Positions 11,590-63,998 are shown, counted from the first letter of the stretch. The stretch: DNA of 64,000 nucleotides from Prorocentrum cordatum (GCA_963575745.1 CAUYUJ010021177.1:1-64000); one strand, 5' to 3'. The notes: generated by a model from the sequence alone, not told the origin. A program made the numbers and translations.

Positions 11590-11905
11590 AGCAGGTTTGC
11601 CCCGCGAATACCATAGCTTTCGACCTCGTCATCGGCATCGCCGTTTAAGCGACGATAGCCGGAGTCGGCGGAGTCGCCGTGCAAGTCTACCCCACCCGTT
11701 GGTATCATCGCTTTATAGAGAATCTTCTTTGGGCAGGCCTGCATCCCGGTAATCGCGTTAACTCGTCGTGCTTGCGTATTCATCGGTTCCTGAGCACGCT
11801 ATACTGATACAACATACACCATCCGCCGTACTTGTGTAATGAGAGCGTAAGCCAAAGCGCCTCTGAGGCTGACAAACATATCGGTGACCATCTTGGGTGC
11901 CTCAG
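11590..11905 (-). CDS. RT-RNase H connection (element A)
   Basis: The minus frame at 11532-11783 reads GYRRLNGDADDEVESYGIRGANLLWRG, a segment that precedes RNase H in related elements, out of frame with it. A hairpin copy (GCAGG, 5-nt loop, CCCGC) lies at about 11592. Confidence 0.5.
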
Positions 11906-11907
11906 CC

Positions 11908-12622
11908 TCAGCATCTGCACCTGTGAGTTTGTGGTGCTGGATAATAGGACGGAGTTGTTCTATATATATATATATATATATATTCGTCTTGATCAAGAGT
12001 AACATTACCGTCGTTATCCTTCGCGTACCTCACATCGCAATCGGTATGTGTATATTTGTTGAGTGTACATTTCCCCAACGTATTTTTAACACACTTGACG
12101 TATTTGTCGATTGTGTCCTCAGCGCCAGCCATGTTTATATCATCAACATGTCTGGCGGTGAGTAGGTCGGTAATCGTCTCCAACTCCGCGTCGTAAGAAA
12201 TGGCTCCGAGTCCAGAGCCTGTCGTGGTCTTCCTGAGTTTCCATGTGAAAGCTCTTGGCGCATATTTGGTGCCGGTGCCTGGCTTGAAGCTCTGTAGACG
12301 GTGTCTTGATTCGCCGTGGTGCTCGAATCCTGGGCGCGATCTGAATGCAGATGCAGGCCCAGGTGGCGGTGCAATGCACGCCGCGCGCTCCTTTTCACCA
12401 GTTGCTTCAGCGAGCTCTCGATGATATGTGGGCCCTTTCGCGCAAGCCATGTTGATGTCAAGGGAAGCGATGATCCACTGCTTCCTGCGCGCTGCCGTGC
12501 TGGCGAGTAATTGCTGGCTTGGCCACGGCGCTGTTCCTGAGTGTTTCTCGGTCGAAAGCTTCGAGGTCCATGGGGCCTTGGAGTGCCGGCGCAACCTGAT
12601 GGTGCGTTCCATTTCGCCCTGC
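11908..12622 (-). CDS. copia reverse transcriptase domain (element A)
   Basis: Frame 12612-11908 (234 codons) contains the RT palm boxes. SLDINMACAKG corresponds to the copia SLDVxxAFLxG box with its first Asp. KPGTGTKYAPRAF corresponds to the K-LYGLKQAPRxW box. ARHVDDINMAG carries the catalytic Asp pair, and CTLNKYTHTDCDVRY plus DQDEYI follow. A second frame (12626-12135) covers part of the same DNA, so at least one shift separates fingers from palm. A (TA)n run at 11962-11982 lies at the 3' end. Both active-site boxes keep their aspartates; the flanking substitutions (ACAKG for AFLKG) suggest decay. Confidence 0.88.
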
Positions 12623-13483
12623 TCATCCGTGACGAATCAATATGTGTGCGTGTCTCGAAATCATGATGTTTGACGCTGTGGATTTGTCTTGTACATTGAA
12701 ACGCTTGTTGTCAGACCATGTCTTGATTTCAGTATATAGGGCTTTTGACACCTTGACTGGGTTCGCCTGGATATCTGCCCCCGTGAGAAGGTCGTCCTCC
12801 TTGACGACCGCAGCTCGTTTAGCCGTAGCGGTCGCAGATGCTCGCATCGTAGTGGCGCGGTCGCCGTCCAGTATCCTACGTTGTTGTTCGGATATCACTA
12901 CCTTCGACATCTCTGCCGTAAAGCAAAGCTCCACGCAGTGTCCGTGCTCGTCGAAGTCTAGTCCATAACTGTCGTCGTCGTCTCTGGAGCACAGCAGGAC
13001 ATGATGTGTCTCGGCTGTGCTAGTACTCTGTGGGTTACCCCGTGCAGGCAAGTGCTCTTGCTGTTCGTCAGCAACTGTGACCAGCGCGCTGTTGTCAGAG
13101 GTCATATGTGTGGGTATGGAATCGAATTCTTCTACTGGGGTTGCTTGCAGTAGTTCCCTTTCGTCTTGTAATTCTGTATGCCACACCTCAATAATATGTG
13201 CCTCGAGGTCTGCCTCTGATTCCCCATGAATTGTAGGAAGCAGGCCATTATCGTGTAGTTGTTCGGCTTCTGGGGCCGCTCTGGCATTGCTGCCTTGTGT
13301 CGACATGTCTACCAGCTCTTGGAATTTTGTCATGTCTTGATCGAAACCCGCTTCTGTTTTTTTGGACTTCAGGCATTGGGTGATTCTCGAGTGTGCTGGT
13401 CCAGGAATATCTTGGATGTTTAAGGCAGTGCCTTCAGCTTGATAATAACGAATACCTGGGTTCACGTCGTTGTCATAACGCAC
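12623..13483 (-). CDS. integrase-RT linker and RT N-terminus (element A)
   Basis: Longest clean frame of the pol region (286 codons). The first 200 residues are acidic and low in order, as usual between integrase and RT. The end, KALYTEIKTWSDNKRFNVQD then ASNIMISR, is the start of the copia RT fingers (ExxTWxxNxxF...SR). The next frame (12622 downward) continues the RT, so a shift lies near 12625. A mini-hairpin with GTAA loop at about 13025-13040 is read here as RGNP, not as the AGxPA seen elsewhere in the element. Confidence 0.75.
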   Translation of the reverse strand: MRYDNDVNPGIRYYQAEGTALNIQDIPGPAHSRITQCLKSKKTEAGFDQDMTKFQELVDMSTQGSNARAAPEAEQLHDNGLLPTIHGESEADLEAHIIEVWHTELQDERELLQATPVEEFDSIPTHMTSDNSALVTVADEQQEHLPARGNPQSTSTAETHHVLLCSRDDDDSYGLDFDEHGHCVELCFTAEMSKVVISEQQRRILDGDRATTMRASATATAKRAAVVKEDDLLTGADIQANPVKVSKALYTEIKTWSDNKRFNVQDKSTASNIMISRHAHILIRHG

Positions 13484-13648
13484 CAGCGTACGACTGCAGA
13501 CATGTCAGCATGCGTGGCTGGGGGTAACTTGTGGATGCTCTTAGCTAGCCAAACAGAAAGAACATTCAATGCGGAAGAAATTTCGGATGAAGAACTGGAG
13601 AGCTAGATGTACCTTCGGAGATACTCGGCTCGCACTTGCAATCTGAAG

Positions 13649-14047
13649 TCATCCTTTTCTGGTCGGGAGATAGCCAACGGTCATAGCAGGTTTCCCCGCA
13701 GGCAAACTAGCTACGAGGACCAGCGCAGTCCGCGAGGCTGTGTTGTCCGAGCCAATTTCGCGAGTGACCAACGCTACTCGCACTATAACTAGACCCCTCG
13801 ACTGGGGATGTTCCATTCCAGCCACCCCAGTTGTCCTTCGTGGTTGTGGGTCGATGGTAGTCAACAAGGTCACCCTCGTTGTAGTACTGCTGACGAATGA
13901 TGGTCGTCTTGGTTTGTAGTGCACGGTTCGCCTTTGCTTTTGTTGTGGCTTGTGTGATAGCTCTGGTGCTTGCGCGATGACTTCGTAATGAAGGGCCAAA
14001 GCGTTAGAATAATCTGCAGTGCTTTGCAATGCATTTGTACAATTCAT
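13649..14047 (-). CDS. pol segment after integrase, unassigned (element A)
   Basis: A 132-codon minus frame with ordinary composition lying between the integrase core and the linker. It ends LPAGKPAMTVGY, where AGKPA is encoded by a mini-hairpin (GCAGG-TTTC-CCCGC on plus, about 13686-13699). Its position fits the integrase C-terminal region. 14048-14433 upstream shows no open frame or motif I can name. Confidence 0.45.
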   Translation of the reverse strand: MNCTNALQSTADYSNALALHYEVIAQAPELSHKPQQKQRRTVHYKPRRPSFVSSTTTRVTLLTTIDPQPRRTTGVAGMEHPQSRGLVIVRVALVTREIGSDNTASRTALVLVASLPAGKPAMTVGYLPTRKG

Positions 14048-14433
14048 TTTATAGGAACATTATTCTGTTTTTTTGCATCAGAAAAATTAAGGCACAACAG
14101 AAATCAAATGAGAGCAGATCACGCCGTGATTTCAACGAGAGACTAAATCAAGTAAGATAGAACAGGGGAGATTGGTATGAGGTTATCCTTTAAATAAGGT
14201 GGGCATTCCGATAGCAGGAGGCAAAATAAAAGGAAACATCCGACAGCACGTAGAGAGCGCGCCGCCAGCTATTGAGATGGGCAAGCCCGCCTGACAATGC
14301 AGGATACAGCGCTTGCCCCGCCTCTATCCACTATAGGCAAGCAAGCATGGCAGAGCGGTCTTACCGGCGCTAGTACCACGGCTGGGGCTAATGAACCGAG
14401 CTCATCGTCCCAGCTGGGGGTGCAGGGAGAACA

Positions 14434-15038
14434 TCACGCCTGTCCTCGGTTGTGATCGGATGTCTCCGTCTGTTGTCCGTGATCTAGAACAGGCATGTCG
14501 GGAAGCGTAGCTGGCTGTCGGCCAAACAATGCGTTGTGCGGTGATTCTTCGTTGTAGAAGGTAAACGCATTGCTGGCAAACGAAGCCTCATGCAATAGTC
14601 GGGTGAACACGAGTGGCGTGTATAACCTATTGAGATCAGCCTCCATGGCGTGAAGCAGGTGTCGTAATATGCCGTTTGTGGCTTCAACGGTGGTGGCGTG
14701 CTGTCCACGCGCGCATATTCTCAGCTCAGTGCCCTTTGCCTTAGGGACTGCCTTCGCGGTGTCGTTATTGAGAGCACCTTCCCCGTCGGAGTATATTACT
14801 TTGGCGGGCCCAACTAGCATCCTGCACTGATGGTGCGCATCTAGGATGCTGGTCATAGTTGTGTCTGGTATCTCAATGCCAGCGCCGTGTCGAATGCAGC
14901 GATCAATATAGTGAAATGCCTTGCGTTCCTGTGTTTAAGCATTATGTCGCACTCAACTTCATCATTGAAGTTGCCGGATAGTGGGGTAGATGACACGATT
15001 GTCTGCCCAGGCTTGTCCAGTCCGTGCGCTCTCGGCAT
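14434..15038 (-). CDS. copia integrase catalytic core (element A)
   Basis: Two overlapping minus frames, 15038-14853 and 14856-14434, together give an rve core. FNDEVECDIMLKHRNARHF has the first Asp. KVIYSDGEGALNND has the second. HATTVEATNGILRHLLHAM has the Glu, with downstream SFASNAFTFYNEESPHNALFGR matching the copia N...SP...FGRxP box. The D, D and E residues are all kept. The junction at about 14855 is a frame change. Integrase would join the cDNA to host DNA. Confidence 0.88.
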
Positions 15039-15334
15039 GTGCCGCAGGCGCCTTTTATCAGGTTCAGCCGCGCATTATCCAGACCAACCTTGGTTAAGAA
15101 ACTCCTTAGCGTGGGACCATCGTAAATTCGGGGAGACGTAAGACCCGGGTACGGGGGACTCGGAAATCCCCGACGAGGTCGTTAAAAAAAATGACGAGGC
15201 CGAGCCTGCATTTTGACGAGGCCTCCCGCTGCAGACATCCCACGAAACTCCTCCTCGTCAAAATCCGAGGCGCGGTCGTCAAAAAACGATGGCGAACCCG
15301 AGTCCTGGCAAACCCAGGTCTTGCGCTCCCCCGA
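15039..15334. other. element A, no readable frame
   Basis: Contains repeated GACGAGGC and TCGTCAAAA words (15170-15290). The pre-integrase zinc region would be expected here but I could not read it with confidence. Confidence 0.35.
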
Positions 15335-15808
15335 TCAATGTGGTTTCCGTAGCTCGCGAGTTACCGCGTTTGGGTCGAAGCTGCGCAGGTTCTGGGGACT
15401 GATCTGCGCGTCAAATCTTGACCAGTCTGGCAGTCTTGGCCGACCAGCAGGGTCACCCGCAGGAGGCGGTGGAGGTGGATCACCTCCCTGCTGTCGCCCA
15501 CGTCTGGCTGCTACCTGTGGTAATCGTCTGCGGTCAGAGCTGCCGGCGCCACTAGGCCCTGAATCATGCGTGCCTGCTGTGATATCGTGGCTGCTGGCGC
15601 CTTCGATCGGACGAGCTCTGAAGCCAGGCTTCGGGGCGCGTAGCCGCGCAACTTGTTTGGCGGCTGGTGCCTCAGAAGCAGCTGCCGCCACACTTGGTGG
15701 TGCATCAGAAGCAGCCGCCGCCGCAGGTGGTGGCGCTGCCGGTTCAGCAAGGGCTGGTGGTCCCTGCCGTGGTTGTCTGGCAGCTTTCACGGTTGGGCAA
15801 ACTTGCAT
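15335..15808 (-). CDS. Ala/Pro-rich linker and RFD..L segment (element A)
   Basis: A 157-codon minus frame. Residues about 18-75 are an Ala/Pro/Ser linker (AEPAAPPPAAAAAS), and the end reads DWSRFDAQISPQNLRSFDP, a more ordered segment just upstream of integrase. It follows the zinc cluster directly but in another frame (shift near 15790). A hairpin-like AGDPAG sequence is at about 15449. Confidence 0.5.
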   Translation of the reverse strand: MQVCPTVKAARQPRQGPPALAEPAAPPPAAAAASDAPPSVAAAASEAPAAKQVARLRAPKPGFRARPIEGASSHDITAGTHDSGPSGAGSSDRRRLPQVAARRGRQQGGDPPPPPPAGDPAGRPRLPDWSRFDAQISPQNLRSFDPNAVTRELRKPH

Positions 15809-16064
15809 TTTCCTGGAGTCAGTAGGTGGCCAGGATGAGTCTTCCCATGGTTATGATGGCAGTCTGGGCATTCACAATAATGATCATCCTTGTCGCACCA
15901 CCTGCAGTGTTTGGGGTTTCTGCTATGTGATGTGGAGTGCATGTTGACATTGTCAGCACGTGCAGGACATCCCCAATCCCCTGATGTTGATTGCACCGTG
16001 CGCCCGTCAGGATGTCTAATGATCGTCGGGTCGTCCAAGTCAAACCCGCGTGCGCTGGTGACAA
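15787..16064 (-). CDS. zinc-cluster segment (element A)
   Basis: The minus frame contains CRWCDKDDHYCECPDCHHNH, with six potential ligands in C-x2-C-x7-C-x-C-x2-C-H order and further His (HGKTHPGH). This spacing suits a zinc-binding module. It is not a classical CCHC knuckle (C-x2-C-x4-H-x4-C). Confidence 0.55.
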
Positions 16065-16087
16065 GAACAGATGATGTATGAGGGTGT

Positions 16088-16405
16088 TTATGAAAAAGGG
16101 CCGCGATTCATCGCGAACGTGTCATGTGCAATTTGAACTGCCTCGACGGAGAGGGATTGCATCTTCGGAATATATTGCGCTGCCTTGGCCAAACCCCTAT
16201 TGCAAGCTGAGGCGTGTTGATGGTGGCCAGTGCACCTTTTGCTGTCAAATGGTGTCAGTAGTGAACGGTGATGGGCGATTATTTCTGAAGGTTTACGTAT
16301 CAGTACGCCATGGGAGTCGCGAGGTCCTGTGGTGCATTGGTCCATATTGACCTTGCGAGCGCCCTCGCGTTTGGCAAGTGTCGTCCATGGCGGTATTGCA
16401 TCCAC
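16088..16405 (-). CDS. retroelement domain of QCxxGxxD...KPT type (element A)
   Basis: A 105-codon minus frame reading MDQCTTGPRDSHGVLIRKPS, then EIIAHHRSLLTPF and RCTGHHQHASAC. From memory, this C...G...D...KP(T/S)...RC.GxHxH pattern is widespread in dinoflagellate copia polyproteins upstream of the protease/integrase. I do not know its biochemical role. The Cys/His content suggests metal binding. Confidence 0.5.
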   Translation of the reverse strand: MDAIPPWTTLAKREGARKVNMDQCTTGPRDSHGVLIRKPSEIIAHHRSLLTPFDSKRCTGHHQHASACNRGLAKAAQYIPKMQSLSVEAVQIAHDTFAMNRGPFS

Positions 16406-16413
16406 TCAAGTAC

Positions 16414-16803
16414 CTACTGGATGTCCTCGTAGGTCGAGTCGTCGGAGATCGTCCTGACGTGCGGCAACCTTTCCACATCACTTAACGTGTGGAGGCCTTC
16501 CTTGTGATGTTCGTACCACGTGTCGTAGTTGACCTCTGCGTTGAGGTGGGATGGTAGTCCAGTAGTTCTGCAGTTGAGTTGTAGGGTTACTATCTTCACA
16601 AAACAAACGTCGAAGTAATGTATTACTGTATCCTGGACTCCCTCGTTACCAAGGTCAGCGTGAGAACGTTTGTCGAGGTTCCCCACTGAGGATAGACTTC
16701 GGCTGAATGCTAAGTGTGATATTCCCCAGTTACCTCCGCATGATCCCAGCTTCTCTACCTTGTTGTTGCGTCCGTAGCATAATGTTGGTATGATGGGAAA
16801 CAC
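16414..16803 (-). CDS. element A segment, unassigned
   Basis: A 129-codon minus frame with normal composition that continues toward the QCTTG segment (AEVNYDTWYEHHKEGLHTLS). No motif known to me. Confidence 0.4.
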   Translation of the reverse strand: MFPIIPTLCYGRNNKVEKLGSCGGNWGISHLAFSRSLSSVGNLDKRSHADLGNEGVQDTVIHYFDVCFVKIVTLQLNCRTTGLPSHLNAEVNYDTWYEHHKEGLHTLSDVERLPHVRTISDDSTYEDIQ

Positions 16804-17744
16804 ATCGGCGTGTGTATCCGCAGGTAGCCCCGCTGGTAGTTTGATGAAGGTTTCCTCGTCTTCATTACTGTCGGAGTCCAGAGGAACACCAGTGTAGTGC
16901 GCTCCACTTCCACGGCCCTTTAGGTCCTCGACGCAGTCGTCATTGCCATCTTCGATATGTCAGGGTATCTTGCGTGGTTGGATGCCGGCCTCTTCATCAA
17001 CTTTCTGCTTGCCCTTTTGTTTTATCCCGGCATCATTAATTAATGCTGTCTGTTGTTGCTCATTGCCGGGTGTAGTGAGCGTCGGGAATTCTGGAATAGG
17101 GGGTGGCGCGCGGCCCCGCTTAATCGAGGGGGGAAGATGTCGATCGTCATCGACGATCGTAACCGCCTGGGGCGTGGTCGCTGCATCTTATCGCTGAGCA
17201 GTGCTAGGGCCGGGGGCTCCCAGTACAGTCGAGTGCATAAAATAGTCACTCCACTCGGCAATGGATCTGTCCAGTTGTGTCCTCCAACAGGCTGGTTCTC
17301 GACCCTGCTATCCTATATGATAAAATTATCGTCAAGGTCTGCAGTTACCCATCGTGCAACATGGTTCCACCGAGGGCCATTGTTAGGAGACTAAACGTAA
17401 GTCCGAACTCCTTTGTAAACTCGGGTGTGTACGTTGAGATATACAGCACTTTTATCGTTTCTCTGTGTCTCGTGCGTATCGATCTGGTCAAGCAGTCGTG
17501 CAAGCATGACAGCGAATGTTTGGTTTCGCCATTCCGCCCACTGGGCGCCTTGGCCGTGCCAGTCTCATTCGCGTTCTACTCGTTCGGCAGGTTTCACCGC
17601 AACTCGGCGAGTGCACTTCCACAGGTTAACTGGGATGCGCGCGCGCGTCGTCGCCTGTAAGTATGAGCCACTTGGCGAACGACTCGAACGATCGAACCTA
17701 ACTGAGGCCGGAATGGCAACATCGCAGTCGCATAACCTGCAGGC
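16804..17744 (-). other. element A, fragmented frames
   Basis: Short minus frames only (for example 17261-17040). One AGxPA-like hairpin remnant (GGTAGCCCCGCTGGTAG) is near 16818. The part from about 17600 to 17740 aligns, inverted, with 32510-32690 of element B. Confidence 0.45.
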
Positions 17745-17984
17745 CTAAGTCTTCGATGTCATCGCGTATGGGTCCCAGTTTCCAAGAGTAGCCTGGGGTC
17801 CCATAAACGCGATAGACTTACGCGAGGCCCGAGCTTTGACCATGAGATTCTGGATGCGCTGGCATTGTGGCCCCGCCCGCCCGCCAGGCAGTCGTGCATG
17901 CCAATCAGCAGGTGTTGCAAGCCGTAGGAGTTGATAGTCCCCAGACAGTAGACCACCCAAGTATTGTATTCCCGTGGATGTCAT
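17745..17984 (-). CDS. conserved segment shared by elements A and B
   Basis: 79 codons, TSTGIQYLGGLLSGDYQLL..ATPADWHARLPGGRA.., stop at 17745. Element B has the homologous reading at about 32264-32497 (GLLSGDYQLLWVATPADWYE). Roughly 60% of residues are identical by eye, and both stay open to the same stop. That argues for past protein-level constraint. Function unknown. Confidence 0.6.
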   Translation of the reverse strand: MTSTGIQYLGGLLSGDYQLLRLATPADWHARLPGGRAGPQCQRIQNLMVKARASRKSIAFMGPQATLGNWDPYAMTSKT

Positions 17985-18057
17985 GACCTCTGCATGTGTT
18001 ATACGATCGCACGTGTATCCACGGGCTCGGAGTTCAGCGCAAGCTGTTTTAACATCC

Positions 18058-18684
18058 TCAATGACAAGAGCACGGTAATGATAACGATGAGATGAGCGTT
18101 CTTTGCCTCCAGCGGCCCACGGGGCAAACGTGCCGGGCCCGCTGTTGCCCCTGGCGCTCGCAGCTGGTGCATGGGAACATGAAGCAGATGTCCCCGCGTT
18201 TGTAGACAGAACCCCAGGTGTCGGCCTGTCTATGCAAGCGAGTGTTGCCGTGGCACTCGCCTGCCCCCTTCGCTCTCTCGAGAGTGAGGGTGGTGTCCGC
18301 GTCGCCGCCTGATTCGGATCCGTGTCTGGGCTCCCGCGGAGTCATCTGGCGAGAGAGGCGTCGCGCTTCTCGAAGTACCGATTTCATAGCTCTCAACAGC
18401 TGTGCCGCACCGCTCGCAGTAGCAGGTTGCCCCGCACGGACGTCGCGTGACATCCACCGTGAGCCCTTGTTCTGGATGGCCTGGTAGACCTTCGCCTGGA
18501 GCGCCTTCGCAGCAGTGTCCTGATCTTGAGGCGTAGGCGAGCTTCCCCATAGGGTTTTCTTCTTGTACCAGGTCGCCAACGTGTTGTCCACCATGGTTTT
18601 GATAGCGAACGTGATCGTGTCCTCGTTGATGCTGTGACTGGTGCCCCTCGTGTTCTGCATCATTATATACGTCTGGGCATCCAT
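18058..18684 (-). CDS. element A segment after protease
   Basis: 208 codons. The start MDAQTYIMMQNTRGTSHSIN matches MGTRAYVMFQDTEGISYAVN in element B (31415-31972), and KVYQAIQNKGSRWMS matches KIYQAIYKEGSKWTS. Two mini-hairpins stand just before the start (18689-18702 and 18713-18726) and one inside (18422-18435, RAGQPATAS), all at the positions seen in B. Function unknown; it may be an N-terminal part of pol. Confidence 0.55.
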   Translation of the reverse strand: MDAQTYIMMQNTRGTSHSINEDTITFAIKTMVDNTLATWYKKKTLWGSSPTPQDQDTAAKALQAKVYQAIQNKGSRWMSRDVRAGQPATASGAAQLLRAMKSVLREARRLSRQMTPREPRHGSESGGDADTTLTLERAKGAGECHGNTRLHRQADTWGSVYKRGDICFMFPCTSCERQGQQRARHVCPVGRWRQRTLISSLSLPCSCH

Positions 18685-18765
18685 GGGGGCAGGTTGCCCC
18701 GCGCTGCTTGACGCAGGGTGCCCCGCTGTAAGCGCCGTGTCGATGGTCTCCTCGACGATGTGACG

Positions 18766-19410: not shown

Positions 19411-19460
19411 GCGTCTCTGGTCCAGGACTCATTAACATTTACGCATTCAAGTGAACGCAC

Positions 19461-56241: not shown

Positions 56242-56242
56242 C

Positions 56243-56333
<91 letters not shown>

Positions 56334-56412: not shown

Positions 56413-56426
56413 GTCGGTGGTGCAAA

Positions 56427-56975
56427 CTACCTTGCAATAGGTGATGTTGTCGTCCACGTACACAAGTGTTCGATGTCGTGCCACTTCTGGTAATATGAGA
56501 CGTTCTTGTCGCAGAGTGTCAAAGGAGTGAGTAGGGCACTGCAAAGTAAGGGCAACCATGTACTTTGACGTTTACTCCCGCTGTCTCGGCCCAGAAGACA
56601 GGAACCAAGTGTGAGGTCGAAGGAGTCGGCGTGTGCACCACTGGGATTTCCAGAAGTGCAATTGTATAGTCCTGGAACAGCTATGTTCTGGATCACCTCA
56701 AGCATATAACTTTCAGACCTATCGTCACATTGCCATAATCCAACATGCTCATATCGTGATGGTGCCGTGTCTTGCGGTGGTGGCGTGGGTATAAATGCTT
56801 CGCAGCTTTCCCAAACACTTGCTTTATGGTAAAAGCCCGTGTATTCCGCAATGCACGTTGCCAGAATGATGTCGTTAGGGTCGCTGGTCAAAGAATGCGT
56901 CACTCCAATCAATGTGAGCATGTCGACATACAGCTGTGTCCTTACGGTCTCCGCCACAGTGGACGCGAGCTGCAC
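56427..56975 (-). CDS. probable exon, Cys-containing extracellular-like protein
   Basis: 182 codons: TQLYVDMLTLIGVTHSLTSD, IAEYTGFYHKASVWESCEAF, YEHVGLWQCDDRSESYMLEV, VPGLYNCTSGNPSGAHADSF and LTLGSCLLGRD. Natural composition, about eight Cys, N-glycosylation-type NCTS and NVSY. No domain identified. Its stop at 56427 lies about 95 bp before the A tract on the same strand, so a retrocopied transcript end is possible. Confidence 0.42.
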   Translation of the reverse strand: MQLASTVAETVRTQLYVDMLTLIGVTHSLTSDPNDIILATCIAEYTGFYHKASVWESCEAFIPTPPPQDTAPSRYEHVGLWQCDDRSESYMLEVIQNIAVPGLYNCTSGNPSGAHADSFDLTLGSCLLGRDSGSKRQSTWLPLLCSALLTPLTLCDKNVSYYQKWHDIEHLCTWTTTSPIAR

Positions 56976-57249
56976 CGAAGTATGCTCAGGCGCCAGAACA
57001 CCACGTTGAATTCCAAAGCGTACGTATAGTTCAAACAGCAGTAGTTCAGGTAGATGCGGTTGTCAATTCATGCATAGATTCAGTGCACCCTCGAGCTTTC
57101 AGCATTTTCCGTCGCCGAGAAGCGTCTCGATAGGAACTTGTTTTCCGAACCTGTATCGGCACGACAAAGTAAGCGGTGAGGGACACATACTGCCACTTTA
57201 CTGTGTGATGTGCACACCGGTACTCACAGATATAAAGACCAGTCGTATG
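56976..57249. other. no gene recognised
   Basis: Continues the minus-strand open reading only for a few codons. No hairpins seen. Confidence 0.3.
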
Positions 57250-57296
57250 ATATATATATATATATATATATATGTACTTATATATATATACATACA
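57250..57296. repeat. (TA)n microsatellite
   Basis: Two TA runs separated by TGTACT. Confidence 0.95.
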
Positions 57297-57419
57297 CACA
57301 AGTGGCACGTGTGTGCCCAGGCTCATACAAAAAACTGAAGGGGCGTTTGAAGCGGGAGTGAACTGCAACATCGAAGTCGCACTCGAGCGCAAGTGGGGTT
57401 GCCACACCTTGCGATGTGT

Positions 57420-57865
57420 GTACCAGGACCCCCCAGGAAGCCTCAGGAGGCCCGACTTGGATACCAGAAGAGGCTCCAGGAGGCCCCAGGATTGTGAGTG
57501 TTGAGCGTGTGTGTGTGTGACGTATGCTTTGTGTGGTGCGTGCTTTTTGTATGTTGTAGGTGTTGTGTGTGTGTGTGTGTGTTATGTTTGTCTAGCGTGT
57601 GATGTGTTGGGCGTGGTTTGTGTCTCTGTGTGCATGTAGTTCTGAAGCCCCAGGAGGCCCCAGGAGACCCCAGGAGGCTTCAGGAGGCCCCAAGAGGCTC
57701 CAGGAGGCCGCAGGAGGCCCCAGGAGGCCCCAGGAGGTTTCAGGAGACCCCCAGGAGGCTCCGAGGCGGGGTCTGGGGTGCCAGAAGGTTCAGAAAACCC
57801 CAGGAGGCCCCAGGAGGTTCCAGGAGGCCCCCAGGAGGCTCCGAGGCGGGGTCAGGGGCTCGATT
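57420..57865 (+). repeat. CCCCAGGAGG minisatellite
   Basis: A 9-12 bp unit AGGAGGCCCC / AGGAGGTTTC recurs about 30 times in two blocks (57425-57495 and 57645-57865), separated by GT-rich sequence (57500-57600). Two larger units ending TCCGAGGCGGGGTC.GGGG repeat near 57765 and 57845. Related in style to 2555-3060. Confidence 0.9.
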
Positions 57866-58600
57866 TTGGAAGGATTTTTCAAGCGAAACCGCCATTCCCT
57901 GAGACTCGGGGTCACAATTATTGACATTACCATGTGTTTTTGAAGGTTTTATGTTGAAATGTTGAAATTCCCATGTGTTTTTGGACCCTGACGTCACGAT
58001 CTGCGTGAGGGGTGCCACCGATTTTCAGAATTTCGAGGATGCCCCGAGCGAAACGCCCAGAAAAATCGCGGACGCGTGCGCACTAATCGCCTCTGAGCTC
58101 TACTCCCTCGGAGAGGTGCGTATATATATATATATATATATATATGTTCACATCGTCTTTGGCTGAGACCGGTCGGACAATTGGAGTATATATCCACATC
58201 ATATTTTCGACGAATTTCCCAGATGTTGGTAGTGAACAACTGATCGTATTTCCGCCCCATCAGGAGCTCACAAGTGCTGCATGGATCTCGGTGTTGATCG
58301 TGTAGATAGCCTCACCAACACCAGTGTACAGAACGAATCGCCACCTACAGCCAGTCAGTGGCGATGCTGGTGATGGAACTGATCATAACCGAGACAGTAT
58401 TCAATAACTGCTGTTACTCCACATGCGGACGGCCGACAAGCGTCCACGGAAAGACACATTGTCACTATAGCTGCAATGCAGAATGCCAGAATAGCAGACA
58501 TGTTCGTATCTTGCGCAGCTTCGTCGGTAATAATCGCGTCGGTCAGACGTCGAAACCAAGGTTTTGACTGAGGCGGGCACTTCCGGCCGAACAGCCGAAA
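57866..58600. other. no gene recognised; (TA)n at 58120-58146
   Basis: TTGACATTACCATGTGTTTTTGAAGG and TTGAAATTCCCATGTGTTTTTGGA (57915, 57962) form a short direct repeat. A (TA)n run follows GGAGAGGTGCG. No protein seen. Confidence 0.4.
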
Positions 58601-59305
58601 TCAACCGATGGTCATAGAGTGTCTGGCTTGACTGGCCTCGGTGGATGATGTGCTCGTGGTCGTAGTGGATGTTGTCGTTGGTCTGAGGGTGTGATGCCCG
58701 CTACGGTAGCATAGTATCGTGTAGGAGTACCACAAGGTGATGGAAATTCCGAACTCTACTGTTGTGCGTTTCTGTGCGTCCGATGAGCTCGTAGCGTGCA
58801 GTGGATGGCGCGTTTCCGCGCGTAGTCCAACTCGGACAGTTGCTCGTGGCGCGCCTTCACGTAGAACCGTCCAACCCGCACGCGTAACTGAATAGTGGTT
58901 GGGTTGTGCGGTGCCTATCAGCCCGCATGGGCCAATGAACACCGCCGCCTGCGCTCGGGTCTGCAACCGAAACCCGCACGCGATAATGCCGTGGTAGACC
59001 AGGGGCCCATTGCCACCGTAACGTCCCGCTTCAGGGACTCAAGTATTCGATTTGCTCGAAAGACACGTTGTTGTAGTCAGTATCATGAGAGGCAAACGTC
59101 CCCCCCAAACGTGACTCGGGAGTTGGAGCCGCTGTTGTTCAGACGTGAGAGACGCGTCGAATGTCCGCATGACATCTTTGACTGAAGTGCGAGGCACCGT
59201 GGGTACCGTATCGCACGAGTATCCATGGCTGATGTTGTAGTAGCACAGTATGAAAGCCATAGTCGTCACAATGACTGCGCTACTGAACGCTTCCGTTGTG
59301 TACAA
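58601..59305 (-). CDS. probable exons with one membrane-like helix, unknown protein
   Basis: Frame 59305-59039 starts with FSSAVIVTTMAFILCYYNIS, a hydrophobic stretch suited to a membrane helix, then CDTVPTVPRTSVKDVMRTFD. Frame 58966-58601 reads VFIGPCGLIGTAQPNHYSVT, VEFGISITLWYSYTILCYRS and a Thr/Ser-rich end. No domain recognised; exon borders not fixed. Confidence 0.33.
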
Positions 59306-60445
59306 ATCAACGGAGATGTGGAAAACATAACGTAGTGCAGTCAGACCTCATGTAGTAAAAATTGAAGAACACGTCCGTCATCGTCATGTGAGTGTCGTCG
59401 TCGGCCCCGCAGCCCGGGGCAAATTATCACACTGCCAGCCGTGCATCCTTGACGGGGGCGCGGCGACGGACCAGCCAGTCTCAGCGCCCGGGGTAGCCCC
59501 TGAGTCTCTCTCATCTCTCTTTGACCTAAAATGTCACGGTCGATATCACAACGTAACGAGATGTGTGTACCACTGGGGGTAGCATGATGTTGGTCATGAC
59601 GATGCATGGCAGAGAGGCTGTAGGATTAGGTCACTACGGGGTCTTCTGTGTGTCAGAATCATCCTCGGCGAATTGCCTCTGAGGATGCTTTGACTGAGCT
59701 TCCGCCCTCTGCCCTTGCTGCCGACCTCGTAGGGCACCTCTGAGCCGCGCCGTGCTGGTCGAGGTGATGGTCGGGGTGATGGTATTTGTCATCGTTATGA
59801 TGGTTATGGTTGTGCTGCTAGTCGCGGTGGTTTCTTGCGTGTGTGTCGGTTAGGTGTAGTGCTTGTCGCAGCGTGCAGCTAGTAATGGCCGTTGCGTCGC
59901 CTGCAGTGTTGATGAAGTCGAATTGTCAACATCGGTCGCACAAAAGGCCAGTGTAAAGCATGCACATCAGTGTGACGTGGACGTGACTCGGGAGGCGTGT
60001 CTGGCCAGAGGGGCTCCTTTCGTGTCGATCGCTGTTGCTATGGAGCCCGCTCGTGTGTTCGAGATAAACTCATCCTCCTCGAATGCGTCGTTTCCTTGAG
60101 CTGGGCATTCGTAGGTATATTCTTATTCAAGGAAGCTGTTCACGTAGTTCAGGCTCGTCGCCGAGCTTCGTCGGTCCCATTGCCACATGTGCGACAGCTC
60201 GTTGCCGAGCACCCAACTGTAAAAGCTGCAACGTCCGCCACCTGTGTAGCCGCCCGTGACAGGAAGCTGCAGCTAAGTAGCCACACGCACAGCTGAATGT
60301 TAGTCGGCAAAGGCTCGCTACCGAGCAGCAGCTGTTTGGCTAAGGCTCGCTGCCGAGCCGAAGCTGTTTAACCGCACAATCGCCACCGAATAGTCGACGG
60401 CGGAGGCGTGTAGTCGCTGTAGTGGTCGGCGGAGGCGTGGTGTAG
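59306..60445. other. no gene recognised, three clear hairpins
   Basis: Hairpins at 60153-60166, 60197-60210 and 60313-60326; a fourth at 60344-60357 in tandem arrangement (GGCTCGCTACCGAGC, GGCTCGCTGCCGAGC). Otherwise short frames. Confidence 0.4.
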
Positions 60446-61036
60446 CTACACGCACAACCCCGCGTTGTAGCCGTAGGAAGCGTGGTGCGCCTCGGGCATG
60501 CGATTGTCGGTAAGCGTAGGTGCGTCATGATGGCTGTAGTCACACCCATTCCACAGCCGAATCGGGGAGGGAGAGAGACGAACATTTATGATGTCGCCGT
60601 ATGCGGTAGTCTCTACATGTAAGGCTGTGGTAGAGTAGCTTTTACCCCCTCGGTGTTTTTTTTCCGCAGGTGTGCACGTAATGATGGCCACTGGCCGTGC
60701 ATGGATAGGTGCGGCAGGTCGCCGTGCTATGCAGGTCGCCCTGCTGGCACCCCTCCACGTTGGCAGCCATCCGCCAGCCGTATGGCTTTGTACCGTACAG
60801 GTTGTTGGCCGTACTTCGTAGTCGGTACTGCACGTGCAGGTTTCTGCGTAGTTGCAAGCTGCTGCATTGTCAACCACAGTTATACTTCCACGGTAACGCA
60901 ATACTGCGTAAGGAACGTGTCCGTGCGTTCGCACTCGCATTCGTAAGTGGTATGTCGTGAAGATGTCGCCGATCATGCTGTAATAGTGTACGTGCAACGA
61001 GAATGTGTTGAACGTGTGTCTTGCGACGTAAAACAT
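60446..61036 (-). CDS. probable exon, Cys-rich protein
   Basis: 196 codons: TFNTFSLHVHYYSMIGDIFT, VLRYRGSITVVDNAAACNYA, ETCTCSTDYEVRPTTCTVQ. Normal composition in the first 110 residues, then less ordered. The hairpin at 60731-60744 lies in it. Function unknown. Confidence 0.35.
   Translation of the reverse strand: MFYVARHTFNTFSLHVHYYSMIGDIFTTYHLRMRVRTHGHVPYAVLRYRGSITVVDNAAACNYAETCTCSTDYEVRPTTCTVQSHTAGGWLPTWRGASRATCIARRPAAPIHARPVAIITCTPAEKKHRGGKSYSTTALHVETTAYGDIINVRLSPSPIRLWNGCDYSHHDAPTLTDNRMPEAHHASYGYNAGLCV
60556..60583 (+). repeat. 28-bp exact repeat, copy 2
   Basis: Identical to 52267-52294, same orientation; flanks differ. Confidence 0.9.
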
Positions 61037-61695
61037 GTACTCGACATGTGTATACGTGCTCAGTCAGTGTCGTAGTCCCAATGTTCGTGTACGGCAGTAA
61101 GTGTTATAAAACAGAAACGTGAATATGCCCGACGGTGCTGTTGGGCGTGAACAGAGGGTGCGATACGCATTGTTGCCTTGAATGAGCATGTTTCCACGTA
61201 CCAGCGTAGGTCCCCAATATTCCAGCAAGCTTGTCTGGCGCTGAGGCGTGTCGCCACGCTGAGGAGTATCGCTACATTGGGGCGTGTCGCCACGCTTGGT
61301 CGTCGCCCTGTGCCAGGTCATACATACGGTTTGGCCCTGCTGTTGTTGCTGCCATGGCTAATTCGGGGGCGGTGTCATAGGACATATAACCTATATCCCA
61401 ACCCGTCGATCCACCATGCACTACACAACCACACCCAAACACATCCTGTCACCCCGAAGACCGATAGCAGTGTAGTCGTATGCTTAATCTTTGAAGGTCA
61501 AGTTGATGTTGGAAGCGGCTGTGGTTGTACCAGCCTGGCGCCGGCTGGACCTACTTGGCAACTCGGAGAGCCAGGACGTCTGGCCTGGCACAGCAAATGG
61601 TGTAGTCGTATATTTTGTTGTGGATGAAGGTTGGGTCGAATTGTCACTTTGCGGGCGAATGCTCATTGCTGTGCTGATGTCATGACTGCGCTTCT
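61037..61695. other. no gene recognised, hairpin pair
   Basis: GCGTG-TCGC-CACGC at 61246-61259 and 61282-61295 with GAGTATCGCTACATT between, itself a weaker inverted repeat (GTA..TAC). Confidence 0.45.
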
Positions 61696-62625
61696 GTGCA
61701 CCTGAACTGTACATGCTCGTCGCCGAGCCAAAGTGTCACTCCGCGCAGTCGGTCACGAAGATATCGTGGGAACTCGTACGATATCTGGTTCAGTAATTCC
61801 TCCTCTCGTCTATTCCATAGAACCAAGTTGCCTAGCCACATTGAAAGAGCTTATGAGCTTGAGGTGCTGGTAGTGGCTTTGAGTCGCGTGGCGGCTTCGA
61901 GGGGAGGAGAAGTAGGGATAGGGATGACAAGTAGAGCCTCTTCGCCCTCCTTTCTCCTGGGCGCAATTATCTTCGCAGACGCCTGTGGTGGCGCCGCCCT
62001 CGAACTGTCATGCGCCCGCCAGGAGAGGGATTCCCGTTGTCGCACCGGCAGTGACTTCACTCTTGTCGCGGTTGCCCGTTGCCGAGCGGATCTCCTCCTA
62101 CCCTCCCTCCTTCATGATGGGAGTTGGGGTGAGGAGAGAGCGGGGGGAGTTTTGGTTGCGGAAAGGAAAGCGGCCGAGAGTCTGTCGCCTAGTGTTGTTG
62201 TAGTGCCGCGTTTTGCTGCTGTCGCGGTTGTTGCTGGTGCGTTTGAAGCGTCATGGCTGCAGTTTCGTCTGCCGAAGTGTTGTGTCGCACCAGTGCCTCT
62301 GTTGTCGTGGTCGAAGTCGTCGTGCGTTGCTCGTGGCAAATGTCCAGCTTTACCGAGTCCCAAAGGCAAGTTGCCTTGCCGTAAGCACTGTAGTGGCCCA
62401 GCAAGTTGCCTTGCAGTAGCTGCTGCTGCCGTCGAGGACCGGACGCCTGTCCAGGGTCACCACACCTGTGACGCATCGCGTATTCCACTGCAGTTCCAAT
62501 ACCAAACCATACTACCCCAAAGTTTAGTATATTATTGTACCAATGCGCACTTCATCTGTGGGTGTAGATGGTGTGAGTTGGTGCATTGCTGTGGAGTGTC
62601 GAAATGGGCTGGGCAATCACTGTAA
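61696..62625 (+). CDS. long plus-strand open frame, doubtful gene
   Basis: 309 codons open on plus, the longest in the right-hand region and against the prevailing minus orientation. Composition Ala/Ser/Val-rich (LEVLVVALSRVAASRGGEVG, FLLGAIIFADACGGAALELS). Five hairpins or hairpin remnants fall inside. Length favours coding, but I see no motif. Confidence 0.25.
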   Translation: MHLNCTCSSPSQSVTPRSRSRRYRGNSYDIWFSNSSSRLFHRTKLPSHIERAYELEVLVVALSRVAASRGGEVGIGMTSRASSPSFLLGAIIFADACGGAALELSCARQERDSRCRTGSDFTLVAVARCRADLLLPSLLHDGSWGEERAGGVLVAERKAAESLSPSVVVVPRFAAVAVVAGAFEASWLQFRLPKCCVAPVPLLSWSKSSCVARGKCPALPSPKGKLPCRKHCSGPASCLAVAAAAVEDRTPVQGHHTCDASRIPLQFQYQTILPQSLVYYCTNAHFICGCRWCELVHCCGVSKWAGQSL

Positions 62626-63239
62626 GTTGGACAAGTAAGAAGAACAACGACTTCCGAGGTGTTGAAATCATAATAGCAGTGTGTGGCTATTCTCACCACA
62701 AGTCGGAAGTATAGTCGCCATCGAACTAGTAGCTGACGATCTTGACCATGTATGGCTGCCTTGCCTTCCAGCATGTGTTGTGGCGAGTTGCCACGTTTCA
62801 GGGCGTGTCGCCACGCTGCCAGAGGGCTTACCAACCTCACGCAGTGAACGTCGCATACGGCATGCACCCCCAACGCACAAGCTCCTTACTTTGTTCAGGG
62901 GCTTGCGGATCTGGGCGCGTTGCCGAAAAATGCGAAATTATGCGCTACGAGCTTCGTACGTGTGGTTTGCAAAAGTTTACCCTCTGCCGACGGTCTACCA
63001 TGCAGCCTATAGCCTAGAGGCCAGTTTCCTGGCATGCCTGGATATGCCAGTTTCCTGGCTTGTCTAGCCTGGACATGTTGTTGTTTTGGCTTATAGCACG
63101 TGGTGGTCGAGAGAGATACACGAACGAGGACTTAGCCTTCCGCTGCGCGGATCTACGAACAACATATTTCCGCCAAACGGCCATCGTGTCCAGAAGATCC
63201 TAACCACGCCTGAGTAGTGGTCAGGCGGCAACGTCAGCA
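62626..63239. other. no gene recognised, hairpin-rich
   Basis: Hairpins at 62781-62794 (imperfect), 62802-62815, 63020-63033 and 63046-63059 (GCCAG-TTTC-CTGGC twice, 26 bp apart). Confidence 0.5.
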
Positions 63240-63385
63240 CTCGCTGGTGGTTGTGGGTCGGCACAGTCTGCACGCGCTGCTGGTAGTGAGTCTGCACAGT
63301 CTGCACATGCAGCTGTGTGTATGTGTGTGTCTGCACAGTCTGCACATGCTAGTGCGCGTGCGTGTGTCTAGACAGTCTGCACGCG
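63240..63385 (+). repeat. GTCTGCACAGTCTGCACATGC repeat
   Basis: CACAGTCTGCAC-type words at about 63262, 63293, 63331 and 63370, spaced 31-39 bp, with GT-rich fill (TGTGTGTATGTGTGTGTC). Confidence 0.85.
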
Positions 63386-63389
63386 CTGC

Positions 63390-63500
63390 CGGGCGCGCTT
63401 CCGCGCTGTAGCAGACGAGGCACGTTGCCGTGCAGAGGGCGTGCTTCCACGCTGTAGCAAAAGAAGCATACTGCCATACAGAAGGCGTGTTTCCACGCTG
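63390..63500 (+). repeat. tandem hairpin block GCGTG..CCACGCTGTAGCA
   Basis: Three related units: GCGCG-CTTC-CGCGC TGTAGCA (63393), GCGTG-CTTC-CACGC TGTAGCA (63439) and GCGTG-TTTC-CACGC TGTAGCA (63485), period 46 bp. Between the first two lies a different hairpin, GCACG-TTGC-CGTGC (63420-63433). Stem base pairs change together between units. Confidence 0.92.
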
Positions 63501-63620
63501 TAGCAGAAAAGTGCGTCTCGTCGTAACTGACGGGTGTCTCCAGGCAGGCTGCCTTGCGAACAGGCATATTTGAAGCGTACCAAAAAATATGGAAAGTTGC
63601 CTTGCGCATCTGGAGCGTAC

Positions 63621-63998
63621 TCAAACAAATGCGATGACATACTTCATGTGCTGATCATCGAAAACGGGAGCACCATGTTGAAAGCAAATGCTGACATATC
63701 GCAGTGAATGTAAGAAAAAAGCCCCAAACAAATAACGAAGAACACAATGATGAAGAACGCGTAGAGCTTGGAGTAGTAGAAGATGTGGATAAGAAAAGTT
63801 TAGTAAGATACACCCTCTCCAATGCATTGGGCTCGTAGGTGTTGGTTGAAATAAGCAGGGGCATGTCCAGACCGACATAACCCGGCTTGTTTCCAAGCGA
63901 ATAAGATCCTTGTAGTGGAATATTGTATCGCGGGACAAAACAAGTTGAACGGCGTGTGCTTGTACAGGTAGAACGCAAGGATGTAGAAATAGAAGAAG
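63621..63998 (-). CDS. exons of a membrane protein, cut by the window edge
   Basis: From the right edge the minus strand reads FYFYILAFYLYKHTPFNLFC (hydrophobic, membrane-like), then in another frame GYVGLDMPLLISTNTYEPNA, then FYYSKLYAFFIIVFFVICLG, a second membrane-like helix near 63740. Shifts near 63900 and 63800 suggest short introns. The hairpin GCTTG-TTTC-CAAGC (63885-63898) sits at the first transition. Family not recognised; the gene continues beyond the window. Confidence 0.4.
   Translation of the reverse strand, partial: LLLFLHPCVLPVQAHAVQLVLSRDTIFHYKDLIRLETSRVMSVWTCPCLFQPTPTSPMHWRGCILLNFSYPHLLLLQALRVLHHCVLRYLFGAFFLHSLRYVSICFQHGAPVFDDQHMKYVIAFV

Follow-up and report, generated by a model that had tools for sequence, protein, structure and literature searches.

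Packaging signals and dispersed hairpins in described systems

To our knowledge, it is poorly understood how an LTR retroelement chooses its own RNA from the cellular pool. The psi stem-loops of retroviruses are small, have G-rich tetraloops (GACG or GGAG), and are bound by the zinc-knuckle nucleocapsid. In PMC5454406, psi is placed at the 5' UTR, and the packaging sequences of yeast Ty1 are assigned to a 5' domain, though not precisely defined. Given a helper, a Ty1 mini-element that retains 380 nt from the 5' end and 357 nt from the 3' end is enough (PMC5454406), which means that dispersed signals are no general requirement. In MS2 and human parechovirus 1, many degenerate stem-loops with a common recognition motif occur along the genomic RNA (PMC4751978, PMC5431903).

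The window analyzed here is a 64,000-nt stretch of DNA from Prorocentrum cordatum (GCA_963575745.1, CAUYUJ010021177.1:1-64000), and its 14-nt hairpins resemble each of these systems in part. As with the packaging signals of MS2 and parechovirus, many stem-loops extend over one genomic RNA; however, the present ones belong to the RNA of an LTR retrotransposon, show far greater uniformity in stem length, loop type, and outer pairs, and would be read by a putative binding protein. The host elements share LTRs and an RVT_2 reverse transcriptase (RT) with Ty1, but they reach 16 kb and carry Tpt1-like and RING domains, and the part of PMC5454406 used here mentions no array of alike hairpins in Ty1. 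Small stem-loops with tetraloops are common to retroviral psi, whose loops are few and clustered in the 5' leader, whereas dozens are distributed element-wide here.

Inverted repeats have also been considered in the same genome, where introners were sought as 8-20 nt inverted repeats close to the ends of introns (PMC10666404). Introners are intron-borne, whereas the present hairpins are 14 nt long and lie within the ORFs of retrotransposons. Rickettsia palindromic elements, bacterial REP, and HIP1 are likewise dispersed palindromes, some of them within ORFs, which represent insertions or DNA sites; in the present hairpins, by contrast, no insertion signature was noticed, and they use the sense strand of a single class of elements. 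A literature search found no earlier description of such a hairpin array in a retroelement.

Hairpin number and pairing

The window contains 68 perfect hairpins with a GC-ended 5-bp stem and a 4-nt loop, compared with 9.1 (sd 2.7, max 19) in 60 dinucleotide shuffles. When a GNNA loop is required on either strand, 43 are found versus 1.0 (max 4) in shuffled sequence, confirming the excess claimed in the original prediction. Fifteen of these lie in 11591-32700, 27 in 48000-63898, and one elsewhere. The predicted copy number of about 80 applies only if up to one imperfect inner pair is tolerated (79 in the window, with 42 in 11591-32700 and 32 in 48000-63898), and is too high for the perfect ones. 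In five hairpin regions, GC-started 5-bp stems with a loop of 4 nt number 9-36; loops of 3, 5, 6, 7, and 8 nt yield 0-4 stems each, in some cells slightly above the expected 0.5-2.1. Unselected stretches totalling 200 kb contained five hairpins. The hairpins occupy the minus strand at 11-24 kb, the plus strand at 24-33 kb, and the minus strand at 48-64 kb, with lone exceptions at 28838 (minus) and 53350 (plus).

The consensus is GC-NN-G-[GNRA]-C-NN-GC-C. The fifth stem base is G in 109 of 112 hairpins, which leaves two inner pairs that vary freely; the third, also written as variable in the original prediction, is nearly constant. A sense skeleton that does not require inner pairing (GCNNGGN[AG][AG]CNNGC) occurs 140 times in the five hairpin regions, with 14 of the 16 possible inner dinucleotides present. 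Two Watson-Crick inner pairs are nevertheless formed in 113 of the 140, and 131 are pairable when G.U is allowed, so the arms do not vary independently. On both strands of the 200 kb of unselected stretches, the corresponding figures are 3/34 and 6/34. G.U inner pairs exceed A.C (20 versus 5 pair cells; 12 versus 5 by distinct 14-mers), which favors RNA over DNA as the folded molecule, where the prediction had allowed either.

Host elements

Two full-length elements of the same genome, A and B, are 15.9 and 16.1 kb long and 81% identical, with LTRs of 253 bp in A (97.2% identical) and 235 bp in B (95.7%). Directly 3' of the 5' LTR of A lies the primer-site-like TGGTAGCGGAGCTGG, which we take to correspond to tRNA-Met; a primer-binding-site pattern of this kind was not found in the window. 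The pol part matches RVT_2 (PF07727, E 1.8e-9, 38 bits, cut-off 31.6), and 54 related pol proteins were recovered among 8000 scored candidates, one of them, from Polarella, being named Ty1/copia-type. Because of the RT type and the LTRs, the hairpin hosts are classified as Ty1/copia-type LTR retrotransposons of P. cordatum. The gag-side ORF of A has a CCHC knuckle match (E 9.2e-4) that scores 19.6 bits where the Pfam cut-off is 20.8; the match is weaker in B. The 2003-4669 ORF of A encodes a Tpt1/KptA-like RNA 2'-phosphotransferase domain (PF01885, E 2.1e-19) and a RING finger. L029:9025-9999, in the integrase position before the RT, gave no Pfam match, and its order and motif look right by eye only. 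A polypurine tract before the 3' LTR was not encountered; the sense strand is pyrimidine-rich there by eye (TCTCCTCCCCTCCC in A). A similar pyrimidine-rich sense tract is present in B and in the 48.04-48.06 kb interval. No empty insertion site was noticed among the few close copies compared.

The interior of A carries 37 sense hairpins and one antisense, that of B 35 and none, and the flanks (8,070 and 7,899 bp) contain no hairpins. What had been regarded as a free-standing dispersed repeat is instead built into LTR retrotransposons.

The elements and perfect hairpins of the window are listed in the table. In the first element, pol matches cover 11149-14931 and upstream ORF matches reach 22297; stop-to-stop translated pieces were searched with the RT-region HMM as query. 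The interval 11101-24000 includes 2 perfect hairpins and 10 pairable skeletons out of 12, and 24001-32800 includes 12 and 16 out of 17. Within the opposite copy, 28795-32665 aligns with 17587-21425 at 67-72%. The LTR edge of the third element is 71% identical to the LTRs of A and B over 124-137 bp (blastn E 2.3e-10 and 8.5e-11); its sense strand is minus and its second LTR lies outside the window. Its LTR family and its hairpins mark this element as related to A and B. In its in-window part, no RT or integrase match was obtained from stop-to-stop pieces of at least 25 aa against an HMM of the 54 proteins, tblastn with the A and B ORFs gave no RT/integrase body, and no known protein was recognized.

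Table. Retroelements and perfect hairpins in the window (positions from its first nucleotide)
Feature	Position	Strand	Basis or remark
Decayed Ty1/copia-type LTR retrotransposon	11149..22297	-	RT-region HMM hmmsearch, tblastn with A/B ORFs
Partial copy, same superfamily, opposite orientation	24001..32665	+	self-BLAST, alignment, tblastn
Pyrimidine tract and LTR start, 3' end of 48-64 kb element	47939..48071	-	blastn, alignment
LTR element body, 33 perfect sense hairpins	48072..64000	-	extends beyond window end
GCAGG-GCAA-CCTGC	20286..20299	-	
GCATG-GTAA-CATGC	20923..20936	-	
GCAGG-GCAA-CCTGC	24845..24858	+	
GCGGG-GTGA-CCCGC	25016..25029	+	
GCAGG-GAAA-CCTGC	25886..25899	+	
GCGGG-GCAA-CCCGC	25914..25927	+	
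GCGGG-GAAG-CCCGC	26205..26218	+	
GCGGG-GCAA-CCCGC	26829..26842	+	
GCGGG-GAAA-CCCGC	27176..27189	+	
GCAGG-GAAA-CCTGC	27355..27368	+	
GCGGG-GCAA-CCCGC	29061..29074	+	
GCGGG-GCAG-CCCGC	29939..29952	+	
GCGGG-GGAA-CCCGC	30657..30670	+	
GCGGG-GCAA-CCCGC	31931..31944	+	
GCTTG-GCAA-CAAGC	48727..48740	-	
GCGGG-GCAG-CCCGC	48766..48779	-	
GCTCG-GAAA-CGAGC	48922..48935	-	
GCCTG-GCAA-CAGGC	49084..49097	-	
GCCTG-GCAA-CAGGC	51284..51297	-	
GCGAG-GCAA-CTCGC	51305..51318	-	
GCGAG-GCAA-CTCGC	52222..52235	-	
GCATG-GAAA-CATGC	52614..52627	-	
GCGAG-GCAA-CTCGC	54524..54537	-	
GCGAG-GCGA-CTCGC x4	55508..55611	-	30-bp tandem array (55508, 55538, 55568, 55598)
GCAGG-GCAG-CCTGC	55908..55921	-	
GCGCG-GAAA-CGCGC	58808..58821	-	
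GCTCG-GCGA-CGAGC	60153..60166	-	
GCTCG-GCAA-CGAGC	60197..60210	-	
GCTCG-GTAG-CGAGC	60313..60326	-	
GCTCG-GCAG-CGAGC	60345..60358	-	
GCAGG-GCGA-CCTGC	60731..60744	-	
GCGTG-GCGA-CACGC	61246..61259	-	
GCGTG-GCGA-CACGC	61282..61295	-	
GCTCG-GCGA-CGAGC	61715..61728	-	
GCAAG-GCAA-CTTGC	62366..62379	-	
GCAAG-GCAA-CTTGC	62401..62414	-	
GCGTG-GCGA-CACGC	62803..62816	-	
GCCAG-GAAA-CTGGC	63020..63033	-	
GCCAG-GAAA-CTGGC	63046..63059	-	
GCGCG-GAAG-CGCGC	63393..63406	-	
GCACG-GCAA-CGTGC	63420..63433	-	
GCGTG-GAAG-CACGC	63439..63452	-	
GCGTG-GAAA-CACGC	63485..63498	-	
GCTTG-GAAA-CAAGC	63885..63898	-	

Conservation of the hairpins

From A to B, a perfect stem is kept in the same columns by 33 of 37 hairpins, compared with 8 of 30 control hairpins (Fisher 1.7e-7), and three of the 33 are kept through compensatory double changes. 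Third codon positions are the same in 162/167 cases (97%) inside hairpins and in 3072/4918 (62%) outside; for four-fold sites the values are 90/95 and 1203/1972. Selection was measured on this single copy pair; two closer pairs, hairpins included, are consistent with it but differ by few changes. In 40 of the 54 related pol proteins, none of the hairpin-type peptides sought was present, and the trait may therefore be young or restricted to some lineages. In local RNA folds, the mean stem pair probability is 0.90 in A and 0.79 in B, while other hairpins of equal size reach 0.67 and 0.53. The hairpins are confined to the element interior in sense orientation, covary, and are conserved at silent sites between two copies. 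Stem retention, silent-site conservation, compensatory changes, and the near-exclusive use of the sense strand indicate selection on the sense RNA, in line with the selection on structure originally proposed. A and B each carry many similar stem-loops along a single genomic RNA, and the conservation of these stem-loops exceeds what coding requires. An RNA-level function of the hairpins is well supported.

Selection on protein, with peptides such as AGQPA and RGNPP repeated in polyprotein linkers and yielding the motif by codon bias, is highly improbable. AGxPA and RGNxP peptides do recur, and the frames of the 34 of 37 hairpins of A within listed ORFs are uneven (8/4/23, one hairpin counted twice), with 23 of 35 placements in one. 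However, all three frames are used and give different peptides, conservation at silent positions is strong, and the 48-64 kb element is filled with hairpins where no known protein was recognized.

A copying mechanism was the other origin first suggested for the stems. Mobile mini-hairpins, or template-switch correction in reverse transcription, could leave the arms complementary without any function, and both the compensatory double changes and the dominance of the GCGGG stem in the 11-33 kb family (13/20 and 18/26, without one favored loop), as if copied, would fit. Such a DNA-level process is quite improbable, since loop ends and outer GC are kept too, the sense strand is used almost exclusively, G.U exceeds A.C, and unselected stretches nearly lack hairpins. 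Moreover, the hairpins are built into the elements: among six checked against related proteins, three lie in aligned coding sequence without an indel, including one inside a conserved RT stretch (ATGEETRMV, ATGE-KER type), and three lie in variable linkers, which are uninformative.

The picture is less clear at 48-64 kb. Over six pairs of four copies, hairpin columns score 0.870-0.929 versus 0.807-0.919 for the whole element, a figure that includes badly aligned ends, so there is no clear conservation excess at the hairpins. Local folding is weaker (0.49 versus 0.25 for other hairpins) and spacing is uneven (CV 1.45). In A and B, one hairpin occurs on average every 420-440 nt or so between the LTRs, and the spacing is even (CV 0.60 and 0.65 versus 0.96 at random), an evenness reached by 0 of 2000 random placements in A and by 0.4% in B.

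Possible roles in RNA packaging

By analogy with the viral systems, the hairpins may be cis-acting RNA elements serving as multivalent Gag/nucleocapsid sites for packaging, a proposal to which we give slightly less than an even chance. Packaging of these RNAs into particles by Gag is assumed. In the sense genomic RNA, each 14-mer would fold into a 5-bp stem capped by a GNRA-type tetraloop. The two inner pairs are free to change as long as pairing stays; the outer GC, the closing G-C pair, and the loop bases at either end are largely fixed. One RNA-binding protein would read the repeated shape, and the likeliest reader is the Gag of the element itself, with the probable CCHC knuckle in its nucleocapsid part. 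Many copies on a 16-kb RNA could allow multivalent binding, by which the RNA would be selected, condensed, and packaged into virus-like particles. RT-less elements, as that at 48-64 kb seems to be, might then be packaged in trans.

Tetraloops are of the GNRA type in most copies, and preferences differ among families. GAAA is favored in A and B (23/39 and 19/40), GCAA/GCGA in the 48-64 kb element (21/35), and GCCA in L002/L004/L005 (16/29, these loci being overlapping and near-identical), as would be expected with a co-evolving reader protein. A fuller version, in which a whole-length 14-nt hairpin code with such loop dialects (GAAA, GCAA/GCGA, GCCA) lets Gag select, measure, and package the RNA and is exploited by RT-less parasites, is doubtful.

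Unconventional splicing proceeds by cleavage and ligation at hairpins. The Tpt1/KptA-like domain encoded by A makes hairpin cleavage and ligation one form of a rival reading, in which the selected RNA elements serve another step (nuclear export, stability, silencing escape, or cleavage/repair) through a host or element factor. This reading draws on the same RNA-level evidence as packaging, and on the RING finger of A besides, yet it seems rather unlikely; the hairpins are element-wide, evenly spaced, and mostly within the ORFs of A (34/37), whereas an excised intron needs two paired junctions.

It is improbable that the hairpins act without protein, folding, compacting, or dimerizing the 16-kb RNA by GNRA loop-receptor docking or loop-loop pairing. 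The mostly GNRA-type loops and the even spacing in A and B agree with this, but the fixed outer GC would be left unexplained. The classical 11-nt GNRA receptor is TATGG..CCTAAG, and this pair was found neither in A nor in B, which has little weight as shuffled sequences give 0.20 and 0.16.

If packaging is indeed their role, the hairpins would amount to a packaging grammar that spans the whole genome of a retroelement, and the spread of RT-less relatives could be explained by it. With an array of some 37 standardized, evenly spaced hairpins under silent-site selection, dispersed RNA recognition would become open to testing in a retroelement. Codon-level analyses of hairpin-bearing ORFs are confounded by RNA structure.

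Occurrence in the genome

In dinoflagellate genomes, which can be very large, the hairpins also provide a strand-specific mark by which such elements can be located. In one genome, the skeleton has 65,942 matches, some of which are other repeats, versus 15,926 for the reversed pattern. GCGAGGMRACTCGC occurs 6,164 times versus 230 for its reversed control and GCTCGGMRACGAGC 5,479 versus 446, while the mismatched GCGAGGMRACGAGC occurs 454 times versus 611.

Abundance and shape of the hairpins

The window contains 68 perfect hairpins in which a 4-nt loop is closed by a 5-bp stem with GC at either end, compared with 9.1 (sd 2.7) in 60 dinucleotide shuffles. With a GNNA loop on one strand the number is 43, against 1.0 in dinucleotide shuffles. 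This is a clear excess over shuffled sequence, the comparison on which the original prediction had been staked. Its estimate of about 80 copies is reached (79) when up to one imperfect inner pair is permitted. The perfect skeleton occurs 47 times in the sense orientation, that of the element RNA.

A loop length of four is distinct: each hairpin region contains 9-36 GC-started stems of this type and 0-4 for any of the other lengths examined. Judged by the loop, orientation is minus at 11-24 and 48-64 kb and plus at 24-33 kb, with single exceptions. A logo was built from 112 hairpins of five regions, namely these three and A and B, two full-length Ty1/copia-type LTR retrotransposon copies elsewhere in the same genome. 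It reads GC-NN-G-[G M R A]-C-NN-GC, followed by C in 85 of the 112. The free positions are the two inner pairs only; since the hairpins were selected with GC ends, the two outer pairs are set by the selection rule. When the outer pairs were left unrestricted, the GC start was still present in 33/33 sense hairpins at 48-64 kb and in 30/33 of A. Rfam (gathering threshold) and ARAGORN gave no match over the window.

Genomic distribution and host elements

In the P. cordatum assembly (4.128 Gb, 21,875 contigs), GCGGGGCAACCCGC is found 3,882 times and the reversed pattern 111 times. A survey of 20 unselected stretches of 10 kb, which were spaced regularly along three large contigs and so do not form a truly random sample, gave only 5 GNNA hairpins over 200 kb. 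In eight 3-kb loci chosen for the motif, there are 4 to 10 hairpins each in the majority orientation and at most two in the opposite one. This sparse background and the dense loci indicate that the hairpins belong to particular elements; on the low count in these unselected stretches, a free-standing dispersed repeat is rejected. One tract of the assembly repeats GCCAGGCGACGTGCC with unpaired arms. Because the arms do not pair, it is a different repeat with the same skeleton, which inflates the genome-wide skeleton count.

A contains 37 sense and one antisense consensus hairpins and B 35 and none, and their outer flanks (8,070 and 7,899 bp) contain no hairpins. The host element encodes RVT_2 in its pol ORF and a CCHC knuckle, slightly under the Pfam cut-off, in the gag-side ORF. 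The ORF upstream of pol has predicted Tpt1/KptA and RING domains, which would be unusual cargo for a copia-type retrotransposon; as a protein query it retrieved none of 8000 scored candidates at E 0.001. The ORFs of A are interrupted by stops or overlaps, so A may not be active. Two copies in the window match the A/B ORFs and align with each other at 67-72%. No primer-site-like pattern was found in the window, and comparison of viral contigs with the pol protein gave one pattern match and no relative.

Coordinates of host elements, associated sequences and other features (C, contigs; L, stretches of contig; G000, assembly of the same genome)
Feature	Location	Strand	Description
Copy A	C2, L040+L029+L030		15,930 bp; LTRs 253 bp, 97.2% identical
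Copy B	C15, L041+L031+L032		16,101 bp; LTRs 235 bp, 95.7% identical
ORF upstream of pol	L029:2003-4669	+	Tpt1/KptA RNA 2'-phosphotransferase match (E 2.1e-19); RING finger (2.6e-7)
Match to A/B ORFs	window 11.1-22.3 kb	-	
Match to A/B ORFs	window 30.0-32.6 kb	+	
Polypyrimidine tract	L030 before 2904		TCTCCTCCCCTCCC
Polypyrimidine tract	window about 48040-48060	-	TCTCCTCCCCTCCC
LTRs of A (L040, L030) and B (L041), and locus L001, with spliced-leader-like stretches	L040:1227-1479; L030:2904-3156; L041:1240-1474; L001:1130		CCGCTGCC..TTTGGCTCAAGG and variants
Spliced-leader-like stretch	window about 47959-47983	-	CCGCTGCC..TTTGGCTCAAGG and variants
Exact relic spliced leader	L016:3565; L020:9786		CCGTAGCCATTTTGGCTCAAG
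Repeat with unpaired arms	G000:C2:1467653-1508153		GCCAGGCGACGTGCC, many times over ~40 kb
Helitron-like element	window 36819-39780	-	Helitron_like_N (8.8e-8); AAA_30 helicase domain (6.9e-15)
Tandem arrays	window 33016-35652; 43381-44628; 46140-47258		unit ~100 bp with GGTCCCCACTTTTTGGGGACC
Internal repeats	window 41227-42691	-	within 969-aa ORF (39871-42780); homeodomain-like HTH_32 matches

Two features of the element ends were also observed. On the sense strand, a conserved polypyrimidine tract immediately precedes the 3' LTR, at the expected place of a polypurine tract. The dinoflagellate spliced leader is NCCGUAGCCAUUUUGGCUCAAG, and stretches resembling it lie in the LTRs of A and B, at the LTR edge of the 48-64 kb element and in L001 and L003, two further loci. 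The LTR may supply the elements with a leader of their own. The exact relic sequence was met in 2 of the 20 unselected stretches.

Covariation of the stems

Skeletons of the form GCNNGGN[AG][AG]CNNGC were gathered whether or not the inner positions paired. Of the 140 found in the five regions, 113 are Watson-Crick at both inner pairs and 131 are pairable when G.U is included, compared with 3 and 6 of 34 in the unselected stretches. The two arms thus do not vary independently, in agreement with the compensatory variation first proposed. By region, the Watson-Crick fraction is 33/36 in A, 33/38 in B, 2/12 at 11-24 kb, 12/17 at 24-33 kb and 33/37 at 48-64 kb; in the 11-24 kb copy, pairing is largely via G.U (10/12 pairable). 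Counts of G.U and A.C among inner-pair cells are 20 versus 5 in the five regions and 18 versus 3 in another nine loci that are partly redundant. This excess favours sense RNA over DNA, and the support is modest because distinct 14-mers number just 12 versus 5.

Genome-wide, GCGAG..CTCGC arms occur 6,164 times, GCTCG..CGAGC 5,479 times and mismatched GCGAG..CGAGC 454 times, counts that cover these three of the four arm combinations and in which the same elements are represented many times over. Among 54 pol proteins, whose sequences are related, a paired hairpin fits 13/23 matches of five residues and 24/68 of four residues, where 6.8 and 13.8 would be expected (shuffle p 0.002), and one of seven control keys gave a similar excess (67/144 versus 45). 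With this one control failed, the protein traces are no more than suggestive of a trait that other dinoflagellates may share.

Selection on the hairpins between A and B

Selection has maintained the hairpin structure between A and B, one of the two causes (selection or a copying mechanism) named in the original prediction. At an overall identity of 80.6%, 33 of the 37 hairpins of A remain perfectly paired in the matching alignment columns of B, three of them through double compensatory change; the test scored stems and excluded the loop. Among other perfect 5-bp/4-nt hairpins of A, 8 of 30 are kept in B, and 14.6% of other 14-mers have both arms unchanged. Third codon positions are identical at 162/167 sites inside hairpins and 3072/4918 outside, the overlapping ORFs being taken from A only and each third position counted once. 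The corresponding values for four-fold sites are 90/95 and 1203/1972. The hairpin motif might have arisen through selection on the encoded peptides; this strong conservation of silent sites disfavours such a source, as does the use of all three reading frames, albeit unevenly (8/4/23).

The hairpins might also have spread by mobile insertion, a reading disfavoured by the stems shared between A and B and by a comparison of six pol-ORF hairpins to related proteins, as many as 32 in number. Among these six, one lies within a conserved RT stretch (ATGE-KER type), now ATGEETRMV, without an indel; two others also lack an indel, and three fall in variable linkers. Alteration of the conserved stretch without an indel suggests that, at some sites, RNA shape overrides protein preference and the hairpin was not inserted there.

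Spacing is more even than expected, with mean gaps of 419 nt (A) and 444 nt (B) and coefficients of variation of 0.60 and 0.65 versus 0.96 for random placement; none of 2000 random sets was equally even for A, and 0.4% were for B. In local 163-nt RNA folds, mean stem pair probability is 0.90 (A) and 0.79 (B), against 0.67 and 0.53 for other hairpins of the same size.

The 48-64 kb element

At 47.94-48.07 kb the edge shares 71% identity with the tract and the beginning of the LTR in A and B, and the A/B proteins have no match in the 48-64 kb block. Given this combination, the block is read as the putative 3' part of an element whose LTR is related and whose body is different or degenerate. Three further copies of a 1.5-kb piece of it exist (89-92%), and alignment of the four copies revealed no clear surplus conservation at hairpins. 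Spacing is uneven (CV 1.45), and stem pair probability is 0.49, compared with 0.25 for other hairpins. These copies are probably dead. The uneven spacing, weaker folding and lack of clear extra conservation at 48-64 kb are the main evidence against a general claim.

Possible function

A near-uniform RNA shape repeated along the whole retrotransposon RNA is what a multivalent reader would require, and its occurrence in an apparently RT-less relative would fit such a reader. Gag/nucleocapsid would be the natural candidate, with packaging of the RNA as the putative function, and the RT-less relative could be mobilised in trans. The closest working analogy is that of the dispersed packaging signals of MS2 (PMC4751978) and parechovirus (PMC5431903). 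In yeast Ty1, a mini-element of the 5' and 3' parts alone suffices with a helper (PMC5454406). Since Ty1 needs these parts only, dispersed signals here would depart from that copia pattern.

Loops differ by family: GAAA in A and B, GCAA/GCGA at 48-64 kb, GCCA in three redundant loci (L002, L004, L005) and mixed at 11-33 kb, a pattern that co-evolution with a reader would permit. The GNRA 11-nt receptor is absent from A and B, where few would be expected anyway. A search of the open-access PMC literature, most subscription papers lying outside it, returned no description of such hairpins.

Other features of the window

A Helitron-like element lies on the minus strand, and tandem arrays flank the Helitron-like genes on both sides. 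A minus-strand ORF with internal repeats matches homeodomain-like HTH_32.
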